Assembly: GCA_024699855.1 (NCBI GenBank)
Contig: JAMPIQ010000001.1
Location: 8,990,001-9,054,000 of the forward strand
Origin: Aphelenchoides besseyi
Taxonomy: Eukaryota > Nematoda > Chromadorea > Rhabditida > Aphelenchoididae
Length of the DNA stretch: 64,000 nt
Direction of reading: 5' to 3'
Of this stretch, positions 3,660 to 47,886 are shown in pieces. The translations under genes and the position numbers were made by a program. Under the pieces are notes generated by a model. It saw only the letters and a program-made list of their open reading frames with translations, was not told the origin of the DNA and made no database searches. Positions within the stretch are counted from its first letter, which is position 1; each line of letters starts with the position of its first letter.

Positions 3660-3887
3660 CTACTGGGCGTTTGAATGTCCAAATGAAACAGAGACCACGG
3701 ACACTACCTTTTTTTCATTAAATAATCCCTCGTCTCTGTATTCGAAGGCAAAATGCTTGGAATATTTTTCGCTAACCACATCCTAATACGGAAAACATCG
3801 TACCTTTGAGCACGTTTTCTCAGACACAACCAGAGACATGGTCGACGAAAAGACGATTAGAAGCAGGAAGAGTGAGCGGACGGTCAT
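3660..3887 (-). CDS. Small secreted ORF with an in-frame stop or a 21-nt intron
   Basis: Starts [18 protein letters not shown], a good signal peptide, followed by a Glu-Lys-Thr-Cys stretch. After 28 codons comes GTACGATG...TATTAG, which contains an in-frame stop and is itself a 21-nt GT...AG segment of seven codons. Beyond it the same frame stays open (..[17 protein letters not shown]..) to a stop at 3660. The mature product would be about 40 residues. It lies about 155 nt upstream of the NDK start on the same strand, so it could be the upstream cistron of an operon or its 5' leader. Family not recognised. A 21-nt intron is shorter than any other seen here, so a stop, an error or a longer alternative intron are all possible. 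Confidence 0.35.
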
Positions 3888-14466: not shown

Positions 14467-14684
14467 CTTAATTAAGGCGGATAAACAAAATCCACTAAGC
14501 TTTTTCGATTACATCAACGAAATGTAAATGAAACGTTTTGACTCAAAATAAGCGAAACAATTTTCTGTTTGAGATTCTTGTGAACAGTCTTTTACGTGAA
14601 ATCACTCTTACACTTTCTTGTACAACAGTTATCCACCGAGTATCTTTTATTGATATGTATACTTGACGAAATCTAACAACACAA

Positions 14685-16779
14685 CTAAACACTAATGCTG
14701 CCTTCTCGGAAGTTTGTCTTCCCGACCAGCGCGTTAACGAGCGTTGAGTCGCCGTTTCGTGTTCCTTCGATTGCCGACTTCAGAATCTCTTCCGTTTTCT
14801 CTTCGTTCTTTTCGTCCAACAAAACGCCCTTCGCAGCCAATGATTCGACAGTCTTCTCGTAGTGAGTAAACTGAAAGGAAGAATCAGTCAAGAAACACAG
14901 ACAGAAAACTCACGTCCAAATCACAGGCAACTGCAGTTTTGAAGAAGGGAACTTGTTCTCGCGCTATTTGTGTCCAACAAGCATCGTTTCCAATCAGTGC
15001 AGCCACCGGCAACTTGTTTCGAACGAACGTGTCGAACTCGACGATCGAGTAGCCGGCCGAACCATCACCGTAGACAATCACAACCGGACGATTGGGATAC
15101 ACGGTTTTTGCACCCAGAGCAAACCCGCCTCCAACTCCCAACGTTCCAAACGCGCCGGGATCCAACCATTGCAACGGACCTCGTGGTCGCAGGATATACG
15201 CGGCACTTCCAACAAAATCACCACCATCAGCAACCAAAATTGCATCTTCGGGAATGACCTGCAAACTGAACTCTGGAGATTGCGATGGGCCATCTGAATA
15301 CCTTGTCCAGCTTGCCCAAAAGATTCAATGGATTGATTCCTCCATCTGCCGGTTTCTCTTCCATCTTCTTTTGATTTTTCCGTTCTGTCGCTTCGTTCCG
15401 TTCTCTTAATCGACGAATCCATTCGGCCGATGTCCCCGTCCACTTGTATCTGTCTTCCAATTCGTTTCGAACTGCAACCAAAGTGCTGGCAACGTCCGCT
15501 TGAAGAAGGTGATCTCCGTGCCAGAAGACGTCTGAATTCTGAAACAAACTCGTCAATCACGTGGATACTTCTGTGGTCGCCTTTTTGAGCAGCTTTTCAT
15601 CTCGGTTGATGACAACGACCTTCGACTTTGTCGACAACAACTTCCCGTAGTCCAAACGAAAATCTGCCGCAGTTCCCGCCAAAATCACAAGATCCGCTTC
15701 TTCCAGCGCCGTTCGTCTGTTTTGCCTCATTTGTAGCTCCGATTTCTGGCCCAACAATCCTCGACACATTCCACTCAAATAGCACGGCAATCCCAATTCG
15801 TTGACTGTTTGCTGCAACTCCTTCGCTTTGATCGGTGGCAAAGTGGCTTGAGAACCCAAAAGCAAAAGCGGTCGTTCAGCTTCGGCGACGAGTTCAGCAA
15901 CCGTCGTGACATCTTTGAGCGAGGCTCTGGGAACATCCACTGGAAGAGGACGAACAGATTGTGGTTCAAAAGCTCGTCCGAACTGCCAAGAAATGTGAGT
16001 CAGACAGTAAAAATTGTGCCATTTCTGTAACTCACTGATCAGAAGAGCGGTTTTGGATAACAGACCTGTCGAAGAGTGTTGGCGTTCGGAACAATGCAAT
16101 CACGAAAAGCATTTTTGTAGGGATACAAGACATCGATCGGGAACTCAATGAAAACTGGACCCGGAGTACCCGATTGAGCAATTTGAATCGATTTCTGAAC
16201 CACCGGTCCGATGTCTCTTAAACGCGTAATTCGAGCCGTGTGCTTACAAATGGACTTGAAGATCGAGAGCTGGTCGATGTCTTGCAGTGCTCCTCGATCT
16301 TTCATCAACGTTGGAGCTGCACCGCCAATCAGCAACAACGGACTTTCGGCCATCTGTGCATTTTTGACCGCAGTGATTGTGTTCGTTACTCCTAAACGCG
16401 TCAGTCAGTTCAACGTTGTCTCGGCTCCTCACCGGGTCCCGATGTCACGGCGGCCACTCCAATCGACTGCCTCAAGCGAGCAACCGCATCAGCGGCGTAG
16501 ACGGTCGTTACCTCGTGTCTTGTGTCCACGATTCGAATTCCCAACGACTCACAAGCGACAATGATCGGAGAAATGTGACCGCCGCATAACGTGAAAACCT
16601 CTTGAACTCCGTGCGCCTTCAGTGCTTCGGCAACCAACTCGCCGCCATGTCGTTTACTTTGCTCATCGACCTGAAGCAAAAACAACTTCAACTCGACTTC
16701 GACCACTTACTCGGAAGAAATCAGAAACCCAATGTTTATTGTGAGAAGAACGACCAAGAAACCTTTTGAGAGCGTGCAT
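14685..16779 (-). CDS. ILVBL: 2-hydroxyacyl-CoA lyase 2 / acetolactate synthase-like, copy 1 (intact)
   Basis: Thiamine-diphosphate enzyme; the mammalian ILVBL protein cleaves 2-hydroxy fatty acyl-CoA in alpha-oxidation. Exon 1 (16779-16711) encodes a basic N-terminus ([20 protein letters not shown]) and joins across a 40-nt intron to '[20 protein letters not shown]'. The catalytic Glu of the ThDP-dependent family sits in '[16 protein letters not shown]'. The C-terminal ThDP/Mg site is '[18 protein letters not shown]' followed by '[16 protein letters not shown]'. An unusually short 30-nt intron near 15542-15571 joins ..ATTE to NSDVFW.. in frame. The gene ends 'FREGSISV'. Poly(A) signal AATAAA lies just outside the duplicated block, so this copy uses new 3' sequence. 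Confidence 0.94.
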
Positions 16780-17029
16780 TGCGAGACTGAAACATTTCGA
16801 TCAGTTGGGTCTTTTAAAGGAGCGTGAGGGTGGAGAGCGATTTCTGGTCGAACAATTCGTTCACTTCGCTCGGCAAAACAAAGAACGAACGAAGGTTTCT
16901 CTTCTTGCAATTAGCGAACAAACAAACGCAGTTCGCCAAAACGTTCAAGATCGCAATTAAGACCGAAAAGTTGGTCTTTCTAATCACAATAAACGCATTC
17001 ACCTCCACGATCACTTGAACAATGCAGAA

Positions 17030-17482
17030 CTAAAATGCAGAAGTGGAAGGCTCCAGCAGCAACTGGAAAAAAGAACGAAGGAAAAGAGAAACGAGAGAAA
17101 ATGAAAAGACAACGCGAACTTTCAACTCTGCGGTTCGCTCCAGCCCGTAAAACGCGTGGAAGTGGAAGGGAGCTCGGGGTTTAAAATCGACTGGTTCGTG
17201 AAGTGTAGTGTTTGGCGATGAGATGATCGATAGGGAGACACAAAAGCGCGAAAGTGCAAACTGAAGCTCCCGGGAAGGTCTGAGATCGGTCCACAGCTCT
17301 TCGGAGTTTGTGCCGCCCAGAAGGCGGACGTTCCAATGGACGTGATCCCGCACCAGAAAACATCCATGCTCATCGGCTGGACAAGAAGCATTCTCGGAAT
17401 GTGGATCCAATAGCCGGTGATCGGAGCATGTTCGGAACTCGGGATCGGACAGCGATTTGAGTGCGATGATCATGAAACCCAA
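17030..17482 (-). CDS. Uncertain ORF upstream of ILVBL, inside the duplicated block
   Basis: Open frame of 150 codons (MGFMIIALKSLSDPEFRTCS...) with mixed codon choice, several Cys and His residues and one 'NTT' site. The other minus-strand frames over the central 270 bp are also open, which weakens the case. In the second block the same ORF is 39034-39504, where one missing A changes its C-terminus. No family recognised. It could equally be the shared promoter region between ILVBL and the divergent membrane-protein gene. Confidence 0.25.
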   Translation of the reverse strand: MGFMIIALKSLSDPEFRTCSDHRLLDPHSENASCPADEHGCFLVRDHVHWNVRLLGGTNSEELWTDLRPSRELQFALSRFCVSLSIISSPNTTLHEPVDFKPRAPFHFHAFYGLERTAELKVRVVFSFSLVSLFLRSFFQLLLEPSTSAF

Positions 17483-17546
17483 TTCAGACTACTCCGTTGC
17501 CAAAACTTTTTTCATTTTGTTGGTTGACAATGAAAACTGCGGTTGT

Positions 17547-20058: not shown

Positions 20059-22039
20059 ATGATGCCGATACATTGGTCGGTCTTTTTCGTTTTTTGTTTT
20101 TTGATCAACTTTGCACTTTGTCGTTCAACAAATCAAATCACTGAAATTGTAAGTTTGGTTTTCGTCTACTTAACAACCATATGCTTAGACTGAAAGCAAC
20201 GTTACTTCTTGGTCGTCGACTAGTATACCAACAACACAATCTCAGTTCTTTTCGGAAACTCCAATGGCTTCTGTTGCCAAGGCAAATGTGAGGTTGGTTT
20301 GCCATTATTTCTATTAACTTTTGTTCTACAGCAAAGTTCCGGACACAACCATCTACTTGGTCATTGTGATCGTTGTGATCCTTCTGTTGAGTAGTTGCAG
20401 CATAAGCGTTCTGTGTTGGTACTGTGGGTTCCTTTATAAGAAAGCGGACTCTAAGCCTAACAAGAAGTGCGTCTGAAAGAATCCTGTGATATTTTGTCGT
20501 CATTGATATCAATCGATGCGTCTCGACGAGCTGAACATTTCTGTGTAAGTCATTTTTGCCGTAATTCTGATATGGCCGAAATTCGCTCCGGGTTATGGTC
20601 CGCTGGTTTTACCTTGGAATTGTGAGCTGCAATAGTCGAGTGAGCAAGTGATGGGCTTGCAAACTCTTTTGAAAGTTGCAGGTTCAATTCTTTCTGTTGT
20701 CGAATGCAAGTTGCTGTCTTGTATCCACACAGCGAAAAGGAAAAAGAGTAAATAGTAGGTGACTACGAGGGATCCAATCGACTTTTTTTCTCACTTTTTG
20801 GAGTCGTTTTGGTAGAACGTAGCACTTGAAAGAGACAATCGATGAAATCGAACCTGCAACCTCCAAAAGAGTTTGCAAGCCCATCGCTTACTCACTCACT
20901 ATTGTAGCTCACACTTCCAAGGGAAGACCAGCGGACCATAACCCGGAATGAATTTCAGCCAAGTAAACCGGCCAATATCTCCATAATGAAGATAAAAAGA
21001 AACAGACTTCACCACGATGATTAGTATAATCGATACTATGATTTCAGCGATTTTAGTCTTTGTGGTTTTTGGCCAAAATCTCGGCCATATCAGAGTTACG
21101 ACAAAAATGACTTACACAGAAATGTTCAGCTCGTCGAGACGCATCGATTGATATCAACGACGACAAAATATCACAGGATTCTTTCAGACGCACTCCTTGT
21201 AAGCCTAAGAAAAAGGAGGTGAAGAAGCCACCGGTCAAAATGAAAAAGGAACCTGGGGGAAAGAAAAAGCCAAAAGAAAAAGTTAAAAAAAAGGAAGTGG
21301 AGTTAAATTTGGAAGACAAGAAGAAGGTAAAAGATCGTAAGAAACCGAGTGGAAATCAGAAAAAATCGTCCGACAAGAAAACGAAGGCGCGTAAACGACC
21401 ATCTGCGCAACGTTATAAAAAGGTCGGTTAACAACATACTAATAGAAAGTTTTTCTTTGCAGTGCCAACCACTTGAGTACGTTGAAGTGAAAGATCCGTC
21501 AATCAAGTTTCTTGCTCAACAAAAACCAGTTCGTGGTTATCAGTTACGACCTGAACAGTTTACGCACAAAGGCGCGGCAGTTATTCCACGGTTTATGAAC
21601 GTCGACATAGTAATTCACATGGCAATACGTAAAGACTAATTGATTGATTTCAGAGCAAACCACCTGAGAAATCGGACAAAACCGTCGAAGATTCCAATGT
21701 GCAACTAACATTTGATGATCAACTCAATGAAGTTTACGACATTGGATCCGAAGTTGAGATCGTGACAAATGAACGAAGACCACGGCGAAATGTCTCAGCA
21801 CTTCAACCAACTCATGCGACTGTTACAAACAATAACTTGAATCCGCTTGAGAACGACGCCAAAAGTACTCCACGTTCGGAACAGCGAAGTCAATCAAATG
21901 GATTCTACGACGGTAAATCGACATTAAATTTCGTTGTTGATTTCAACGTTCAGATCCGGCTCGTTTCAATGAAATTCGAGGGCGACAATCACGACGTCGT
22001 GACTCGCCCGCCAAAAGCGATCAGTTGCAATTGATGTGA
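20059..22039 (+). CDS. Type I membrane protein with Lys-rich tail, carrying a transposon as an apparent intron
   Basis: Exons 20059-20148, 20189-20292, 20332-20466, 21188-21422 and from 21463 keep one frame. Signal peptide MMPIHWSVFFVFCFLINFAL; a short Ser/Thr-rich ectodomain; membrane helix 'TIYLVIVIVVILLLSS' then Cys pairs; a strongly basic tail (many KK, KPK repeats); then 'LTFDDQLNEVYDIGSEVEIV' and an Arg/Ser-rich end (stop 22037-22039). The same FDD..NEV.DIGSEV motif ends the mucin-like protein at 34741-36079, so the two are paralogues of a family I cannot name. A 739-bp foldback element lies within what was a coding exon. If splicing uses its termini, 27 nt (nine codons, including the target duplication) are added in frame; if not, translation stops at TGA right inside the element. 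Confidence 0.78.
20452..20460. repeat. Target-site duplication (left), TAAGCCTAA
   Basis: Identical to 21200-21208 on the other side of the foldback element. Nine base pairs is the usual length for Mutator-like (MULE) insertions. Confidence 0.9.
20461..21199. mobile_element. Foldback, non-autonomous DNA transposon (MULE-like)
   Basis: 739 bp, almost entirely made of two long inverted arms. The left arm starts CAAGAAGTGCGTCTGAAAG and the right arm ends with its complement (CTTTCAGACGCACTCCTTG); pairing continues over roughly the first 130 bp, then again for about 110 bp around 20581-20690 against 20835-20950. The right arm has about 125 bp that the left lacks. There is no coding capacity. The 9-bp duplication on both sides (20452-20460, 21200-21208) identifies the ends and suggests a Mutator-type transposase. 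The termini double as splice sites: donor GTGCGT at 20467 and acceptor TTTCAG at 21187. The long hairpin could also yield double-stranded RNA. Confidence 0.93.
21200..21208. repeat. Target-site duplication (right), TAAGCCTAA
   Basis: Second copy of the 9-bp duplication. Reading directly from one copy to the flanking exon without the element also gives an uninterrupted Lys-rich frame, which confirms the ends. Confidence 0.9.
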
Positions 22040-36079: not shown

Positions 36080-36703
36080 CATTCTCAATAAACATTTCAC
36101 TTGACATTGGATATCAAAAGATGAAAATATTAAAAGATTTTTTTAACAATACTGTAACTATCAGGTTTAATTTGTCAGTTTGTCGTTATCAATGTCCGAA
36201 TTCTTTGCTACGAACATGTTCCATTGAGTCGTCAACTTGTCGTTTGCTACGTTTCTTCTGAGGTTCTTGTAAAGGACATTTTTGTTCGCAAGTAGCCGGC
36301 AAATAACTGAGGATAAATTTGTAGAAATCAATAATTAAACTAAAATTACAACCTGTTTCCTTTTATCATAATGGAAAAACAAACTGATTTGCATGCAACC
36401 CTTTGGACAATCGATTTACATCAAGTGTAGTGTTGTCCATGGTCTCAACGAGGGACAATCGTCGTATCCGTTCAATCTTGGGGAACAACCACAACAACTA
36501 CGAGTATTGATCGTAAATTTGTTTGCAGAAACTCTTCATGGCACGTGTAATACCACTTTTCATGTTTTTTATGAAAATGACAGATAATCAAATAGGTAAA
36601 TTTAAATTGCGTTTGCTATCTATCAGCTGGAAAACAAGTCAAAAAGTCAATTGACAATCGAGGGCTTATTTTAATAAAAGTAAACAATTAGATATACATA
36701 ACA
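36080..36703. other. Intergenic region left of duplicated block 2
   Basis: About 620 bp, AT-rich. Short Cys- and Lys-rich minus-strand reading frames exist (about 36180-36310 and 36430-36490) but do not join into a credible gene. ATTAAA at about 36672-36677 on the minus strand could be the poly(A) signal of ILVBL copy 2. Confidence 0.35.
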
Positions 36704-39568
36704 AACTAAACACTAATGCTGCCTTCTCGGAAGTTTGTCTTCCCGACCAGCGCGTTAACGAGCGTTGAGTCGCCGTTTCGTGTTCCTTCGATTGCCGACT
36801 TCAGAATCTCTTCCGTTTTCTCTTCGTTCTTTTCGTCCAACAAAACGCCCTTCGCAGCCAATGATTCGACAGTCTTCTCGTAGTGAGTAAACTGAAAGGA
36901 AGAATCAGTCAAGAAACACAGACAGAAAACTCACGTCCAAATCACAGGCAACTGCAGTTTTGAAGAAGGGAACTTGTTCTCGCGCTATTTGTGTCCAACA
37001 AGCATCGTTTCCAATCAGTGCAGCCACCGGCAACTTGTTTCGAACGAACGTGTCGAACTCGACGATCGAGTAGCCGGCCGAACCATCACCGTAGACAATC
37101 ACAACCGGACGATTGGGATACACGGTTTTTGCACCCAGAGCAAACCCGCCTCCAACTCCCAACGTTCCAAACGCGCCGGGATCCAACCATTGCAACGGAC
37201 CTCGTGGTCGCAGGATATACGCGGCACTTCCAACAAAATCACCACCATCAGCAACCAAAATTGCATCTTCGGGAATGACCTGCAAACTGAACTCTGGAGA
37301 TTGCGATGGGCCATCTGAATACCTTGTCCAGCTTGCCCAAAAGATTCAATGGATTGATTCCTCCATCTGCCGGTTTCTCTTCCATCTTCTTTTGATTTTT
37401 CCGTTCTGTCGCTTCGTTCCGTTCTCTTAATCGACGAATCCATTCGGCCGATGTCCCCGTCCACTTGTATCTGTCTTCCAATTCGTTTCGAACTGCAACC
37501 AAAGTGCTGGCAACGTCCGCTTGAAGAAGGTGATCTCCGTGCCAGAAGACGTCTGAATTCTGAAACAAACTCGTCAATCACGTGGATACTTCTGTGGTCG
37601 CCTTTTTTTGAGCAGCTTTTCATCTCGGTTGATGACAACGACCTTCGACTTTGTCGACAACAACTTCCCGTAGTCCAAACGAAAATCTGCCGCAGTTCCC
37701 GCCAAAATCACAAGATCCGCTTCTTCCAGCGCCGTTCGTCTGTTTTGCCTCATTTGTAGCTCCGATTTCTGGCCCAACAATCCTCGACACATTCCACTCA
37801 AATAGCACGGCAATCCCAATTCGTTGACTGTTTGCTGCAACTCCTTCGCTTTGATCGGTGGCAAAGTGGCTTGAGAACCCAAAAGCAAAAGCGGTCGTTC
37901 AGCTTCGGCGACGAGTTCAGCAACCGTCGTGACATCTTTGAGCGAGGCTCTGGGAACATCCACTGGAAGAGGACGAACAGATTGTGGTTCAAAAGCTCGT
38001 CCGAACTGCCAAGAAATGTGAGTCAGACAGTAAAAATTGTGCCATTTCTGTAACTCACTGATCAGAAGAGCGGTTTTGGATAACAGACCTGTCGAAGAGT
38101 GTTGGCGTTCGGAACAATGCAATCACGAAAAGCATTTTTGTAGGGATACAAGACATCGATCGGGAACTCAATGAAAACTGGACCCGGAGTACCCGATTGA
38201 GCAATTTGAATCGATTTCTGAACCACCGGTCCGATGTCTCTTAAACGCGTAATTCGAGCCGTGTGCTTACAAATGGACTTGAAGATCGAGAGCTGGTCGA
38301 TGTCTTGCAGTGCTCCTCGATCTTTCATCAACGTTGGAGCTGCACCGCCAATCAGCAACAACGGACTTTCGGCCATCTGTGCATTTTTGACCGCAGTGAT
38401 TGTGTTCGTTACTCCTAAACGCGTCAGTCAGTTCAACGTTGTCTCGGCTCCTCACCGGGTCCCGATGTCACGGCGGCCACTCCAATCGACTGCCTCAAGC
38501 GAGCAACCGCATCAGCGGCGTAGACGGTCGTTACCTCGTGTCTTGTGTCCACGATTCGAATTCCCAACGACTCACAAGCGACAATGATCGGAGAAATGTG
38601 ACCGCCGCATAACGTGAAAACCTCTTGAACTCCGTGCGCCTTCAGTGCTTCGGCAACCAACTCGCCGCCATGTCGTTTACTTTGCTCATCGACCTGAAGC
38701 AAAAACAACTTCAACTCGACTTCGACCACTTACTCGGAAGAAATCAGAAACCCAATGTTTATTGTGAGAAGAACGACCAAGAAACCTTTTGAGAGCGTGC
38801 ATTGCGAGACTGAAACATTTCGATCAGTTGGGTCTTTTAAAGGAGCGTGAGGGTGGAGAGCGATTTCTGGTCGAACAATTCGTTCACTTCGCTCGGCAAA
38901 ACAAAGAACGAACGAAGGTTTCTCTTCTTGCAATTAGCGAACAAACAAACGCAGTTCGCCAAAACGTTCAAGATCGCAATTAAGACCGAAAAGTTGGTCT
39001 TTCTAATCACAATAAACGCATTCACCTCCACGATCACTTGAACAATGCAGAACTAAAATGCAGAAGTGGAAGGCTCCAGCAGCAACTGGAAAAAAGAACG
39101 AAGGAAAAGAGAACGAGAGAAAATGAAAAGACAACGCGAACTTTCAACTCTGCGGTTCGCTCCAGCCCGTAAAACGCGTGGAAGTGGAAGGGAGCTCGGG
39201 GTTTAAAATCGACTGGTTCGTGAAGTGTAGTGTTTGGCGATGAGATGATCGATAGGGAGACACAAAAGCGCGAAAGTGCAAACTGAAGCTCCCGGGAAGG
39301 TCTGAGATCGGTCCACAGCTCTTCGGAGTTTGTGCCGCCCAGAAGGCGGACGTTCCAATGGACGTGATCCCGCACCAGAAAACATCCATGCTCATCGGCT
39401 GGACAAGAAGCATTCTCGGAATGTGGATCCAATAGCCGGTGATCGGAGCATGTTCGGAACTCGGGATCGGACAGCGATTTGAGTGCGATGATCATGAAAC
39501 CCAATTCAGACTACTCCGTTGCCAAAACTTTTTTCATTTTGTTGGTTGACAATGAAAACTGCGGTTGT
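36704..39568. repeat. Duplicated 2.86-kb block, copy 2
   Basis: Direct repeat of 14683-17546, about 22 kb away, one base longer overall (+2 in a T run, -1 in an A run). At the right end the sequence runs straight on into an intact signal-peptide exon (Met at 39552), whereas copy 1 breaks off after 17 coding bases. This flank is therefore the older one and the block most likely moved from here to 14.7 kb. Confidence 0.97.
36706..38802 (-). pseudogene. ILVBL: ILVBL copy 2, frameshifted
   Basis: Same exon structure, start (38802) and end (36706) as copy 1 and, apart from one run, the same sequence. In the coding run at 37603-37609 there are seven T (A on the coding strand) instead of five. The frame then reads '..[13 protein letters not shown]' and stops, removing the C-terminal ThDP-binding domain ('[14 protein letters not shown]'), without which the enzyme cannot hold its cofactor. 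No alternative splice at the following 30-nt intron restores the frame. The change lies in a homopolymer, so a sequencing or assembly error must be considered; if real, this locus is a very young pseudogene. Confidence 0.8.
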
Positions 39569-43394: not shown

Positions 43395-45630
43395 ATGCAA
43401 ACATCTCCGGAAACGTTCTTTGTTCTCACGCACGTAAAATACTGCGGTCAAATTTCGACGTTCTTTAGAGTTTGCAAACAAACGCGAGACGACGCTTCTC
43501 AAAGTGATCTGATTAGCTGCGCCTTGGATACGAATGATATCATTGATTCTTCATCGTCGACTACTCCAAATGAAGTACTTGCTCGTGTTCTTGTGCCTGA
43601 CGAGAAATGTGATGTAAAAGAAGCTAATGATCAGCATTGTAGGCACACAGCCTGTTCACAGTTCATTATCGTTTCATCTTAGCCATGAGACTGCAAACGA
43701 AAAAACCGATCTATGGATCGGAAACCAATTGGAAATCCATCTGGATTATTTCGACGTTAACTTTGTGTGCCATGATTCAATTTACTCTCTTCTTCAGCTC
43801 AACTTATTCTTATTTGCTAAGCGTAAGTTTGACTTTTTAGTTAATGGAATAGCAATTCATTTTTAATCACAATCGGCAATAGCGATGTGATGCGAAAATT
43901 AACACGTCAAACCATTCGGTTTTTAAGTGTAATTTTAGTTTCCAGTCATATGTTTATTCTATGATTTTCAGCTTGATCCATCAGTTACCGAGCGATTCTA
44001 CGGTGGCGTAGTGGCAGCCTACAGTGCTGGACAGATAATCGGCAGTCCCATGCTCGGTCGAATAGCAGACAAAACGAAAACTGTTCGCATCCCAATTGCT
44101 ATTGGTATCATCTTGTCATTCGTTGGCAATGTTCTTTACATCGCTGGCTCGGTTGTTCCGGTTTCTTGGTCAAAGTACCTGGTACTTTTGGGTCGTTTTG
44201 TCGTTGGTTTTGGTGGATCGAATGTTGGAGTCATGAGAAGCTATGCGTCGATGGCAAGCAGCAAAAATGATCGATCTCGCGCAATTGCACTTATCAACGG
44301 CGGTTATTCGACGGGTTCGGTTATTGGTCCATGTCTTCAATTACTTTTCACTCCATTCGGTATGTTCTAAGCAAAGACTTTCATGTTTAGTGGATTTCAG
44401 GTTATCCGGGAATTCAAATCACTGGTAAATTGCATTTATCGACCTACACGTCTCCTGCTATTTGCGCGATGGCAATTAACGCCATTGGACTTCTTTGTTT
44501 GTACTTTTGTTTCGAAGAACAATACGCCGGAATTGTGGACAAATCAAAGGTATGTAATGATAACCCAACTCTTTCATGTTTGATTTGCAGTTGAAATCCA
44601 GTGAAGACAAAAAGATAAAAGTGCTGCCGAGCTATGATGTTCTTGCCGTTTTTGTTGTTCATCTTGTTACTTTTGCACAACGTTTTTCATTCACAAATCT
44701 CGAATCGTAGGTTAACAGTTCGAAAATAGTTTTAAATAGTATTTCAGAATAAGCGGACCGTTGGGAATGGCAATGTTTTCATGGAATAAACAAGAAACAG
44801 TTGAGTATATTGCAATTGCACATGGAGCAGTTAGTTTCTTAACACTTCTCGTTAACATGGCATATTTCACGTTTAAAATGGAGAAAATGTATGTTACGAG
44901 TATCAACTTAACAAATCGTAACGTCTTTTAGTCTGGATTTCCGTATTCAATGCATAGTTGGTCTTTTCGGTCTACTAGCATTCCATTTGATTTCGTTTTC
45001 TTGGCCATTTCTACCACATTCATTGACCACATACTCTCAGAAAGGTAGTCAATCAGTTTGAGTAGCATTTCTGATACAAAGATTTTAGAGTATGACGCTG
45101 CAATAGCTAATGGCACTGAAGTTGTGGGTTGCAATGCTGATCGATTTTCTTGGTGTGAATCAATAAAACCGGTGAATGTTTGGGTCTATTACGGAGCTTA
45201 TGTTTTGTTCATTGGCATTTGTTATCCATCAATTCAAGTCACAATCAACACTCTGTTTTCGAAAGTGCTCGGACCGAGATTGATTTCCACACATCAAGGA
45301 TTTTTACAAGTCACGAGCTCATCGGCAAGATTAACAGGACCTTTGTTAATCACCAACTTGTACACATCGTTTGGTCCACGATATGCGTGGTATTTGGAGT
45401 TCCTGGTGTTGGGTCTCACAATTGCAGTATTCTGCGGGCTTTTTAAACGAATGATTCCACTCGAATTACCCGCTCATATTTCGAACTTAAGCACAATTAA
45501 AATTCAACCATCGGATCAAAACAAGCTGTCCGTTAACAGTTTTACTAGCCACAGCTACAGTTCACAGTCCACACTGTCAGATTGTGAGACGAATCAAGAG
45601 AGCGTTCAGACGACGAGATCCATGATCTGA
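43395..45630 (+). CDS. Major facilitator transporter, MFSD8/CLN7-like, copy A
   Basis: Twelve-helix MFS protein. An acidic cytosolic N-terminus ('SDLISCALDTNDIIDSSSST') joins across an intron to 'MRLQTKKPIYGSETNWKSIW' and helix 1. The MFS signature between helices 2 and 3 is 'GSPMLGRIADKTKTVR', helix 4-5 'LLGRFVVGFGGSNVGVMRSY' and 'LINGGYSTGSVIGPCLQLLF'. The second half has 'FSFTNLESISGPLGMAMFSW', a lumenal loop with Cys and an NGT site ('NGTEVVGCNADRFSWCESIK') and 'HQGFLQVTSSSARLTGPLLI'. It matches the CLN7 family of lysosomal transporters. Translation may instead start at MRLQTK if the TTAG just before it accepts a spliced leader. A paralogue lies convergently 126 bp away. Confidence 0.85.
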
Positions 45631-45755: not shown

Positions 45756-47886
45756 CTACACAGTCGAAATTTTTATTGTTTGTTTTTCATCAGCAACGCA
45801 AACATTCACTAACTTTTGGGTTTTGATCGAGTTAATGAGCGGTGGAACTGGAAACTGTTTTTCGGGTATTTTCAAGGGAACCATACGATCGTATAACTTG
45901 AACCAAAGAACAACCACTGTGCTCAAGACCGCTATTTCCAGAATCCACGAAGCTCGAGGTCCCATCGAAGTGAAAAGATTCGAAATTAAAAGCGGCGCAA
46001 TCTGTAAACGTTGTTTTATTTGAAAACTCGAACTCTTGACTTTATTCTTGACTAACCAAACGTGCACATGATCCAGTAGTCATCAGCAATCCCTGTTCAG
46101 CAGACATCCTTCTTGGACCTATTATCTTACTTCACAAATTTCAATTCACTCACATTGAATTCTTGGACTTACCTGAATATTGTGTTCAATGTTATGTTGA
46201 TGGACGGAAAACAAGTTCCAATGAATAAAACATAGGCAACGTAGTAGACCCAAACGTTCATTGGTTTTGTTGTTTCACACCAAGCAAAACGATCGACATT
46301 ACAACCAATCAATTCGGATCCATTGGTTATTGCAGCATCATACTCTAAAGGGAACTCGTAAAAGATATGAATTATAAGCTGAACCTTCTTGAGAATATGT
46401 GGTCAAAGAGCCGCCGAGAAATGGCCATGAAAACGTGATTAGATGAAAGACGATTAGACCGCAAACGGCAGAAAGACAGGCGATACGGAAATTCAAACTG
46501 AAAATAACAATCCATGTTCAACCAATAATCTTTTGCATACATTTTTTCCATCTTAAACGACACAAAAAGCACATTAATTCCAAGAGCCAAGAACGAGAGA
46601 CAACTGTGTGCTATTCCCATTCGAAAAACGACTTGTTCTCTTGTCCACGAGAACACCGTTTGTCCGATGATTGGTCCGAGTCTAAGAATCAGAATGAAAG
46701 AAACTTGAAATTTCGATTACGTTTCCAAATTTACGTAAGTAAATCGCTGTGAGAAGATCGTGACATGAACAAGAAAGATTGCAAGCAAATCGTATTTCGG
46801 TAGCTTTTCCGTTTCATCTGACTAATCGTATTCATGGACTACAAATTTAGTGTACTTCAACTTACGTTGTTGCGTTTAGTTTTTGGCGCTAGTCCCGCAT
46901 AATCTTCGACAAACAAGGTCCATAAGGCGATCATACCACAAATCTAAACGTCTCGTTTGAGAACCCTTCTGATTTAACGCACGTTTATGACGCAGGCAAA
47001 AACACCGGGAATTGTGTACATCGACAACCAAAAACGACCGTAGATATGCCAACCGGGATAACCGACTGATGTGAATATGACGATTATTGCTGGTCCCGTC
47101 ATCGAACCGATCGCTACTCCACCAGTACACAACGCCAATGCCCGACTTCTTTCTTCTGAAGTTGAAGACATTGAAACAAAACTTTTTAGCAACGAAATGT
47201 TGCCTAAAGGATAAGAGTAAGAAATCTGCGTTTTGTCTTACTCGATCCAATACCAACAATAAATCGAGAAAACATAACAATGTAACGACTATGCTCAGGA
47301 AACAGTTGTGCAAGAACATAGGCCATGTTACCAATAAGACATAACACCAGGCATATATTGACGGGAATTCGAATGTTCTCAAGTCGATTACTCACAAGTC
47401 CAAGTATTGGAGCTCCCAGGATTTGTCCACAACTAATTTTAACTAAAGATTTTTACTCAACGTAAATTTTACCTGTAGGCTGAGATAATCAAACCAAAGA
47501 ACCATACGGTTGTGTTGGGATCGAGCTAAATTTAATGTTATTTTGATCGGAAGGAAAACTGATAAGCATTCTTTGTCCACGTACACGAACGGAAGTTCGC
47601 GTCGATCATTCGATTAATTGCATGATCTTATTCCTTCAAATAAACTCACTATTTGAAGATATGGCCATGTCGATGAGATGTAGAGAGAGAACTGTAGCGC
47701 TGAGCACGTAGCCAAAGAAGCGGCAACAGCAATCGATTTCCAAGGCGTTTTTACTTTCTGTTCACTCTCTTCATCATATTCTTCATCGTTGGAAAAGAAA
47801 ACACCATTGGCAACATCTACGGGACTTGCTGACTGCTCATCGACTGTCCCTTTGCGTAACGACGATCTTCTTCTTTCCGGTGACAT
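45756..47886 (-). CDS. Major facilitator transporter, MFSD8/CLN7-like, copy B
   Basis: Minus-strand paralogue of the neighbour. The N-terminus 'MSPERRRSSLRKGTVDEQSA' with an acidic patch leads to 'TPWKSIAVAASLATCSALQF'. Then 'APILGLVSNRLENIRIPVNI', 'MFSRFIVGIGSS', 'SEERSRALALCTGGVAIGSM', 'GIAHSCLSFLALGINVLFVS', the lumenal loop with conserved Cys ('GSELIGCNVDRFAWCETTKP') and the end 'MGPRASWILEIAVLSTVVVL'. Residues and intron positions (for example inside 'FKMEK') agree with copy A, so this is an inverted duplication that kept its introns. Both appear complete. Confidence 0.85.

Follow-up and report, generated by a model that had tools for sequence, protein, structure and literature searches.

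The window analysed here is a 64,000-nucleotide stretch of the Aphelenchoides besseyi contig JAMPIQ010000001.1, and all coordinates below are counted from its first letter. A small gene on its forward strand was modelled with a first exon at 20062–20148, which encodes a hydrophobic N-terminus and matches the public protein P0002, and a second at 20189–20292, placed by the frame model. The third exon is in two parts. The left part (20332–20466) encodes a transmembrane segment and ends with 6 nt of a 739 bp foldback element lying at 20461–21199 on the forward strand; the right part (21188–21422) begins with 12 nt of the element, followed by TAA and a lysine-rich stretch. The remaining exons are at 21463–21609 (identical in the public protein P0001), 21654–21912 (with the DIGSEVE tail motif common to the paralogues) and 21954–22039, where the frame model places the stop codon. 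An alternative end of exon 2 at 20287, with the GT at 20288, was rejected because it gave early stops in the frame of exon 3; the end at 20292 is required.

When candidate splice sites in the terminal repeats of the element were joined, the sequence model of seven exons gave a single open frame of 350 aa; the frame is kept through all downstream exons, as the first-pass annotation had reported. The predicted product has the layout of a single-pass membrane protein, with the hydrophobic N-terminus, transmembrane segment and lysine-rich stretch followed by the tail. The other five modelled introns are 39–44 nt long, in agreement with the earlier figure of about 40 nt. Unspliced reading into the element meets a stop after two more codons.

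Three paralogous loci, two of them near-copies, were found in the same genome. Their predicted proteins have a transmembrane segment and then a similar tail. It is in this tail that the similarity is firm, with 17/27 residues matching in L065 and 22/67 in L067; whole-length identity is only 26–28 %, with a few residues invariant on the transmembrane side. Since segment and tail stand together in one predicted protein, the paralogues support, though they do not prove, the view that the flanks of the element belong to a single coding exon of one gene, which bears out the earlier description of an insertion in a coding exon. Searches with the host protein returned one A. besseyi record for each query, P0001 at 100 % identity over 60 % of one and P0002 at 98 % over 58 % of the other. 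In the public annotation the gene is divided at the element: P0002 runs into exon 3 in a different frame and then stops, and P0001 begins at Met 21241, differs from the window in the short lysine-rich stretch, is in frame afterwards and continues into a downstream kinase. These split models suggest that the element is also present in the assembly behind the two records, with no junction annotated there. The fusion in P0001 of the host tail with the downstream kinase gene, which lies in the window from about 22463, is probably a misannotation.

The element runs from CAAGAAGTGCGTCTG to CAGACGCACTCCTTG and is almost wholly inverted-repeat sequence, with arms of 134 nt that are 94 % complementary (some flank counted in) and two more inverted pairs inside, so that the 739 bp foldback structure recognised in the first pass was confirmed. 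The left arm of the terminal repeat was taken as 20461–20579 on the forward strand, up to a break past position 119 that is common to the window copy and the copy at L042; the right arm, its inverted-repeat match, is at 21081–21199 on the reverse strand. The RNA fold of the element and its flanks was predicted at −454 kcal/mol, whereas 20 shuffles averaged −193 (sd 6). No recognised coding capacity was found in the 739 bp window copy.

Other copies were sought in a genome of 47.4 Mb in 31 contigs. With up to three mismatches, the end motif was found at 62 sites against 59 for a reversed-pattern control, so most weak sites are attributable to chance. Twenty-two end sites were assigned to elements, giving 15 loci with the same end type, of which seven are two-ended (the window copy, L039–L043 and L045) and eight have one recognisable end (L044 and L046–L052). 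Left out were L053 and L054, whose end motifs have two mismatches and lack TNA, L068 and L069, which show no similarity to the element, and all three-mismatch sites except both ends of L045, the total of 62 being barely above the control; L049 was counted although its segment is 93.5 % identical to that of L048. The copy at L047 is interrupted by an insert of about 3.1 kb. This locus was considered as a possible autonomous copy and rejected, as the translations of two frames in the insert read, by eye, as a nested LINE-type retroelement and not as a transposase.

The element is bounded by an exact 9 bp repeat, TAAGCCTAA, at 20452–20460 and 21200–21208, which had been taken as its target duplication. 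Among the six other two-ended copies, however, five have an exact 3 bp TNA duplication, the sixth (L043) has none, and a duplication of 8–10 bp, as expected of a MULE or Mutator-like element, was found in 0/6. The target is CTNAG at four of the seven two-ended sites, the window site included. At L043, the inverted repeat (2915–2930 and 3783–3798) extends about 8 nt past the usual ends on both sides. The repetition of TAAGCCTAA is thus real, but it is best read as a TAA duplication (20458–20460 and 21200–21202, each inside one copy of the 9 bp repeat) in a CTAAG target that probably already held an AAGCCT hexamer repeat. On this reading, the residue that the insertion would leave after splicing is 6+12+3=21 nt and not the 27 nt first proposed. 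Membership among the MULEs was rejected on the target duplications.

A wider search pattern, TNA followed by CAAGGAGTGC and a loose tail, matched at least 110 sites, compared with 8 for the control. The relatives at L060 and L061, located with PF03221, carry inverted repeats about 320 bp long, both starting with CAAGGAGTGC, the same first ten bases as the element, and targets of CTTAG and CTAAG respectively; L059 is a third such element with one end degraded. Past the first ten bases the repeat has diverged yet can still be aligned in copies with the CAAGGAGTGC end type. Long open frames are present in L060 (474 codons), L061 (397) and L059 (474), and a profile search with the L060 frame found Transp_Tc5_C (2.4e-13) and HTH_Tnp_Tc5 (3.7e-7), with DDE_1 below the cut-off. 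The three are mutually 99 % identical across 2.7–2.9 kb, and this near-identity, together with the long transposase frames, suggests recent activity of the Tc5-type family. Because of the TNA duplications and the Tc5 transposase encoded by relatives that share its first ten bases, the window copy is classed here as a non-autonomous Tc4/Tc5-type element and not as the MULE-like one first named. The shared termini and target indicate that it was presumably moved by a Tc5-type transposase encoded elsewhere in the genome. The element and its relatives resemble Tc4 in fold-back structure, CTNAG target and TNA duplication, Tc4 recognizing CTNAG and duplicating TNA and its first description calling it fold-back in the title (available text of PMC11071193 and a reference cited there).

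The proposed intron is 20467–21187 on the forward strand, 721 nt long, with donor GAA/GTGCGT and acceptor CTTTCAG/AC, exactly as first noted. Splice sites were scored with a small gene finder trained on 215 kb of the same genome, using 101 donors and 101 acceptors, the donors pre-selected by score. The acceptor scored 7.3, above 88/101 training acceptors and within the top 0.32 % of AGs in the 215 kb. The donor is weak: on the first, unsoftened matrix it scored 2.0, below 101/101 of the pre-selected training donors, and 17 % of all GTs scored at least as high. The stricter donor threshold of the gene finder excluded weak donors, and the donor matrix was softened before pairs were ranked, which favours this donor in the ranking; on the softened matrix it scored 3.5, against 3.2 for the weakest own donor of the host gene. 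With that matrix the terminal-repeat pair was the first of 161 frame-keeping pairs (donors from about 20341–20560, acceptors from about 20900–21422). C at +4 occurs in 7/174 predicted short introns, and GTGCGT in none of those seven.

Both signals lie within the inverted repeat, and the near-symmetry of the two ends that had been pointed out was borne out. Across the 15 loci the end has the form TTTCAG in six and TTGCAG in nine. The splice pair is present in seven of the eight scored ends, the exception being L052, of the TTGCAG group, in which the acceptor AG is lost. The terminal repeat of this MITE subfamily is GTGCGTCTGAAAG or GTGCGTCTGCAAG, each carrying the candidate donor and acceptor. 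The autonomous repeat, GTGCTTGTC, differs in having no usable acceptor at these positions and only a weaker frame-keeping pair elsewhere, scoring at best 6.1 against 9.6. Splicing at the terminal repeats with a 3 bp duplication created new stops in 0/2304 contexts (every pairing of four left with four right end forms, any N, each of the three frames and all two-base contexts free of stops) and in 0/1296 when three end forms were used. A frame-keeping pair as good as that of the consensus end (9.57) arose in 0.5 % of 3000 mononucleotide shuffles of the 60 nt repeat and in 0.33 % of 3000 random window 60-mers treated as repeats, figures to be read as a post hoc test in a genome that holds many transposon families. 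At L041 (3728–3738), the last base of the element and the TNAG target form an outward donor, GTNAG, which with the terminal-repeat acceptor defines a potential 11 nt exon that was used by the gene finder.

The arms of the window copy differ at four of their first 119 positions (5, 42, 99 and 105). Three of these differences occur in no other aligned arm. The remaining one, a G-to-A change at position 5, recurs in L050, falls on donor −2 and lifts the pair score from 9.57 to 10.82. Provided that the arms were identical when the element inserted, these differences would mean that the window copy is not brand new and that the frame has stayed open since.

The rough gene finder placed nine of the 15 loci: two in coding exons, one in a pre-existing intron and six outside predicted coding sequence. 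L041, L042 and L047–L050 received no clear placement. Outside coding sequence, L045 begins 28 nt past a predicted stop codon, and L039, L044, L046, L051 and L052 are outside predicted genes; the copy at L043 is within an existing short intron according to a Kazal-domain reading frame, where the gene finder itself had called an exon. The second exonic copy, at L040, interrupts a coding exon of a gene of the C2H2 type (zf-C2H2, 8.5e-6), with a candidate intron at G000 C2:9119974–9120820, and three paralogous C2H2 exons are unbroken across its insertion point. Its terminal-repeat junction is also in frame and is predicted to add TRNALLV between EKL and SCCYAEHMKN. No homologue of this C2H2 protein was found in public proteins at E≤0.001. 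By eye, the frame seems to shift relative to the paralogue L062 at an A run farther downstream, so the host gene may be decaying or the assembly may be wrong at that run.

Taken together, a slightly better than even case can be made for exon insertion followed by splicing at the terminal repeats, and the element is a good, though unproven, candidate for a transposon-made intron. On this reading, a Tc5-type transposase encoded at another locus presumably moved the non-autonomous Tc4/Tc5-type foldback element into a CTAAG site in an exon of a small membrane-protein gene, past the part encoding the transmembrane segment and ahead of that encoding the tail. Splicing of the pre-mRNA would use the GT lying 6 nt in from the left end and the AG lying 12 nt in from the right end, so that the message would gain 21 nt (seven residues) and the tail would still be made. 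Given the 3 bp duplication and the location of both signals in the inverted repeat, insertion into an exon at any CTNAG should have the same outcome, whatever the phase or orientation. Use of these sites by the spliceosome is what we infer from the sequence, and several observations weigh against it: the weak donor, the choice of other pairs by the gene finder on the intact locus, the position of both sites within the predicted RNA stem, the split public annotation, and the C2H2 gene at L040, which may be broken farther downstream and for which the search found no public homologue.

The most serious alternative, though on our assessment an unlikely one, is plain disruption giving a loss-of-function allele, in which the transcript would run into the hairpin, stop two codons in and be degraded or silenced, and the splice-like ends would be due to chance. 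The divided gene models, the low donor score and the location of both sites in the stem are all consistent with this, as is the finding that seven of the nine placed copies are outside coding exons. Against disruption, the downstream exons are all still open and keep the family tail motif, and equally good frame-keeping pairs were rare in shuffles (0.5 %, judged post hoc).

Removal of the element at other sites, such as 20424/21130 or cryptic host sites, is less probable again. The pair 20424/21130 ranked second among the frame-keeping pairs, and it was the choice of the gene finder on the intact locus under the stricter donor threshold; when softened, the gene finder took the terminal-repeat donor, but with other acceptors than the terminal-repeat one. 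A possible competing donor, G/TAAGC (21199–21204, forward strand), is formed by the last base of the element and the target, and its score of 3.54 equals that of the terminal-repeat donor. Against 20424/21130, its pair score is lower (8.8 against 10.8), and its use would change how the transmembrane exon ends and retain about 70 nt of the element. Tc1, another Tc1/mariner-superfamily insertion in a nematode, was reportedly found by Rushforth and Anderson in 1996 to be removed by splicing from Caenorhabditis elegans pre-mRNA, a precedent for the main reading as well. The sites used there are said to be cryptic and varied, which differs from the fixed pair in the terminal repeat for which removal is proposed here. 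Among the papers listed in a literature search on Tc4/Tc5, none on splicing of these elements was seen.

Nematodes trans-splice leaders, and the 3′ half of the gene could come from a separate message, with the terminal-repeat acceptor taking the spliced leader and translation beginning at Met 21241. The strong acceptor and the start of P0001 at that methionine fit such a message, but a promoter would be needed in or near the element and the tail would be made without its transmembrane segment, and we regard this as improbable. A MULE-like element with a true 9 bp duplication is the least credible reading, since the exactness of TAAGCCTAA at both ends and the 9 bp duplications of foldback Mutator-like elements in Meloidogyne (PMC3169594, available text) are set against the 3 bp TNA in five of the six other two-ended copies (none in the sixth) and the Tc5 transposase of relatives sharing the first ten bases. 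The Meloidogyne element Tm1 has similar foldback ends and MITE-like members in a plant-parasitic nematode; it differs in its 8–10 bp duplications without target preference, its other terminal motifs and its Mutator-like transposase (PMC3169594, as far as the accessible text describes it).

The first-pass description of the element as introner-type held for its mechanics, splice sites being carried at seven of the eight scored ends, but not for the scale of intron gain. Many introns at new positions were not found: of the 15 loci, nine of which could be placed, only two were assigned to coding exons, and the family is therefore not an established introner family. The introners of Aureococcus, in which both splice sites are inside the element and 12 bp are added, have in common with this element terminal repeats, a target duplication, internal splice sites (here candidates) and extra codons; the families there differ in making many introns, from five copies up (PMC9860276, accessible portion). 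Hairpin introners have been proposed in Amoebophrya (PMC7789003, accessible portion). In a survey of 3,325 genomes, introners were reported in only two animal groups (PMC9860276, accessible portion), and the main text of that paper has no word starting with ‘nematod’. A literature search in which subscription journals were thinly covered, mostly at the level of titles, returned no recognised paper on the present element.

Tentatively, the family may represent an introner at birth in a nematode, a possibility for which the odds are against rather than for: a Tc4/Tc5 MITE subfamily with splice-competent, phase-neutral, stop-free and orientation-independent ends, whose exon insertions would survive and which would already be in two genes. 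The origin of introns in animals is thinly documented. If the element is spliced, it would provide a simple example in which both the transposon family and the target rule are known and the arithmetic of 6+12+3=21 nt with no new stop would account for tolerated exon insertions. It thereby becomes possible to test whether splice signals arise in the ends of a transposon family before it turns into an introner family.

Elsewhere in the window, a direct duplication of 2.87 kb was found at 14678–17546 and 36700–39568, the two copies being 99.9 % identical, 22 kb apart and each holding a nuclear RNase P RNA (17212–17503 and 39234–39525). An inverted repeat of about 380 nt, 70 % identical, at 44870–45251 and 46182–46559 is possibly an older foldback element.
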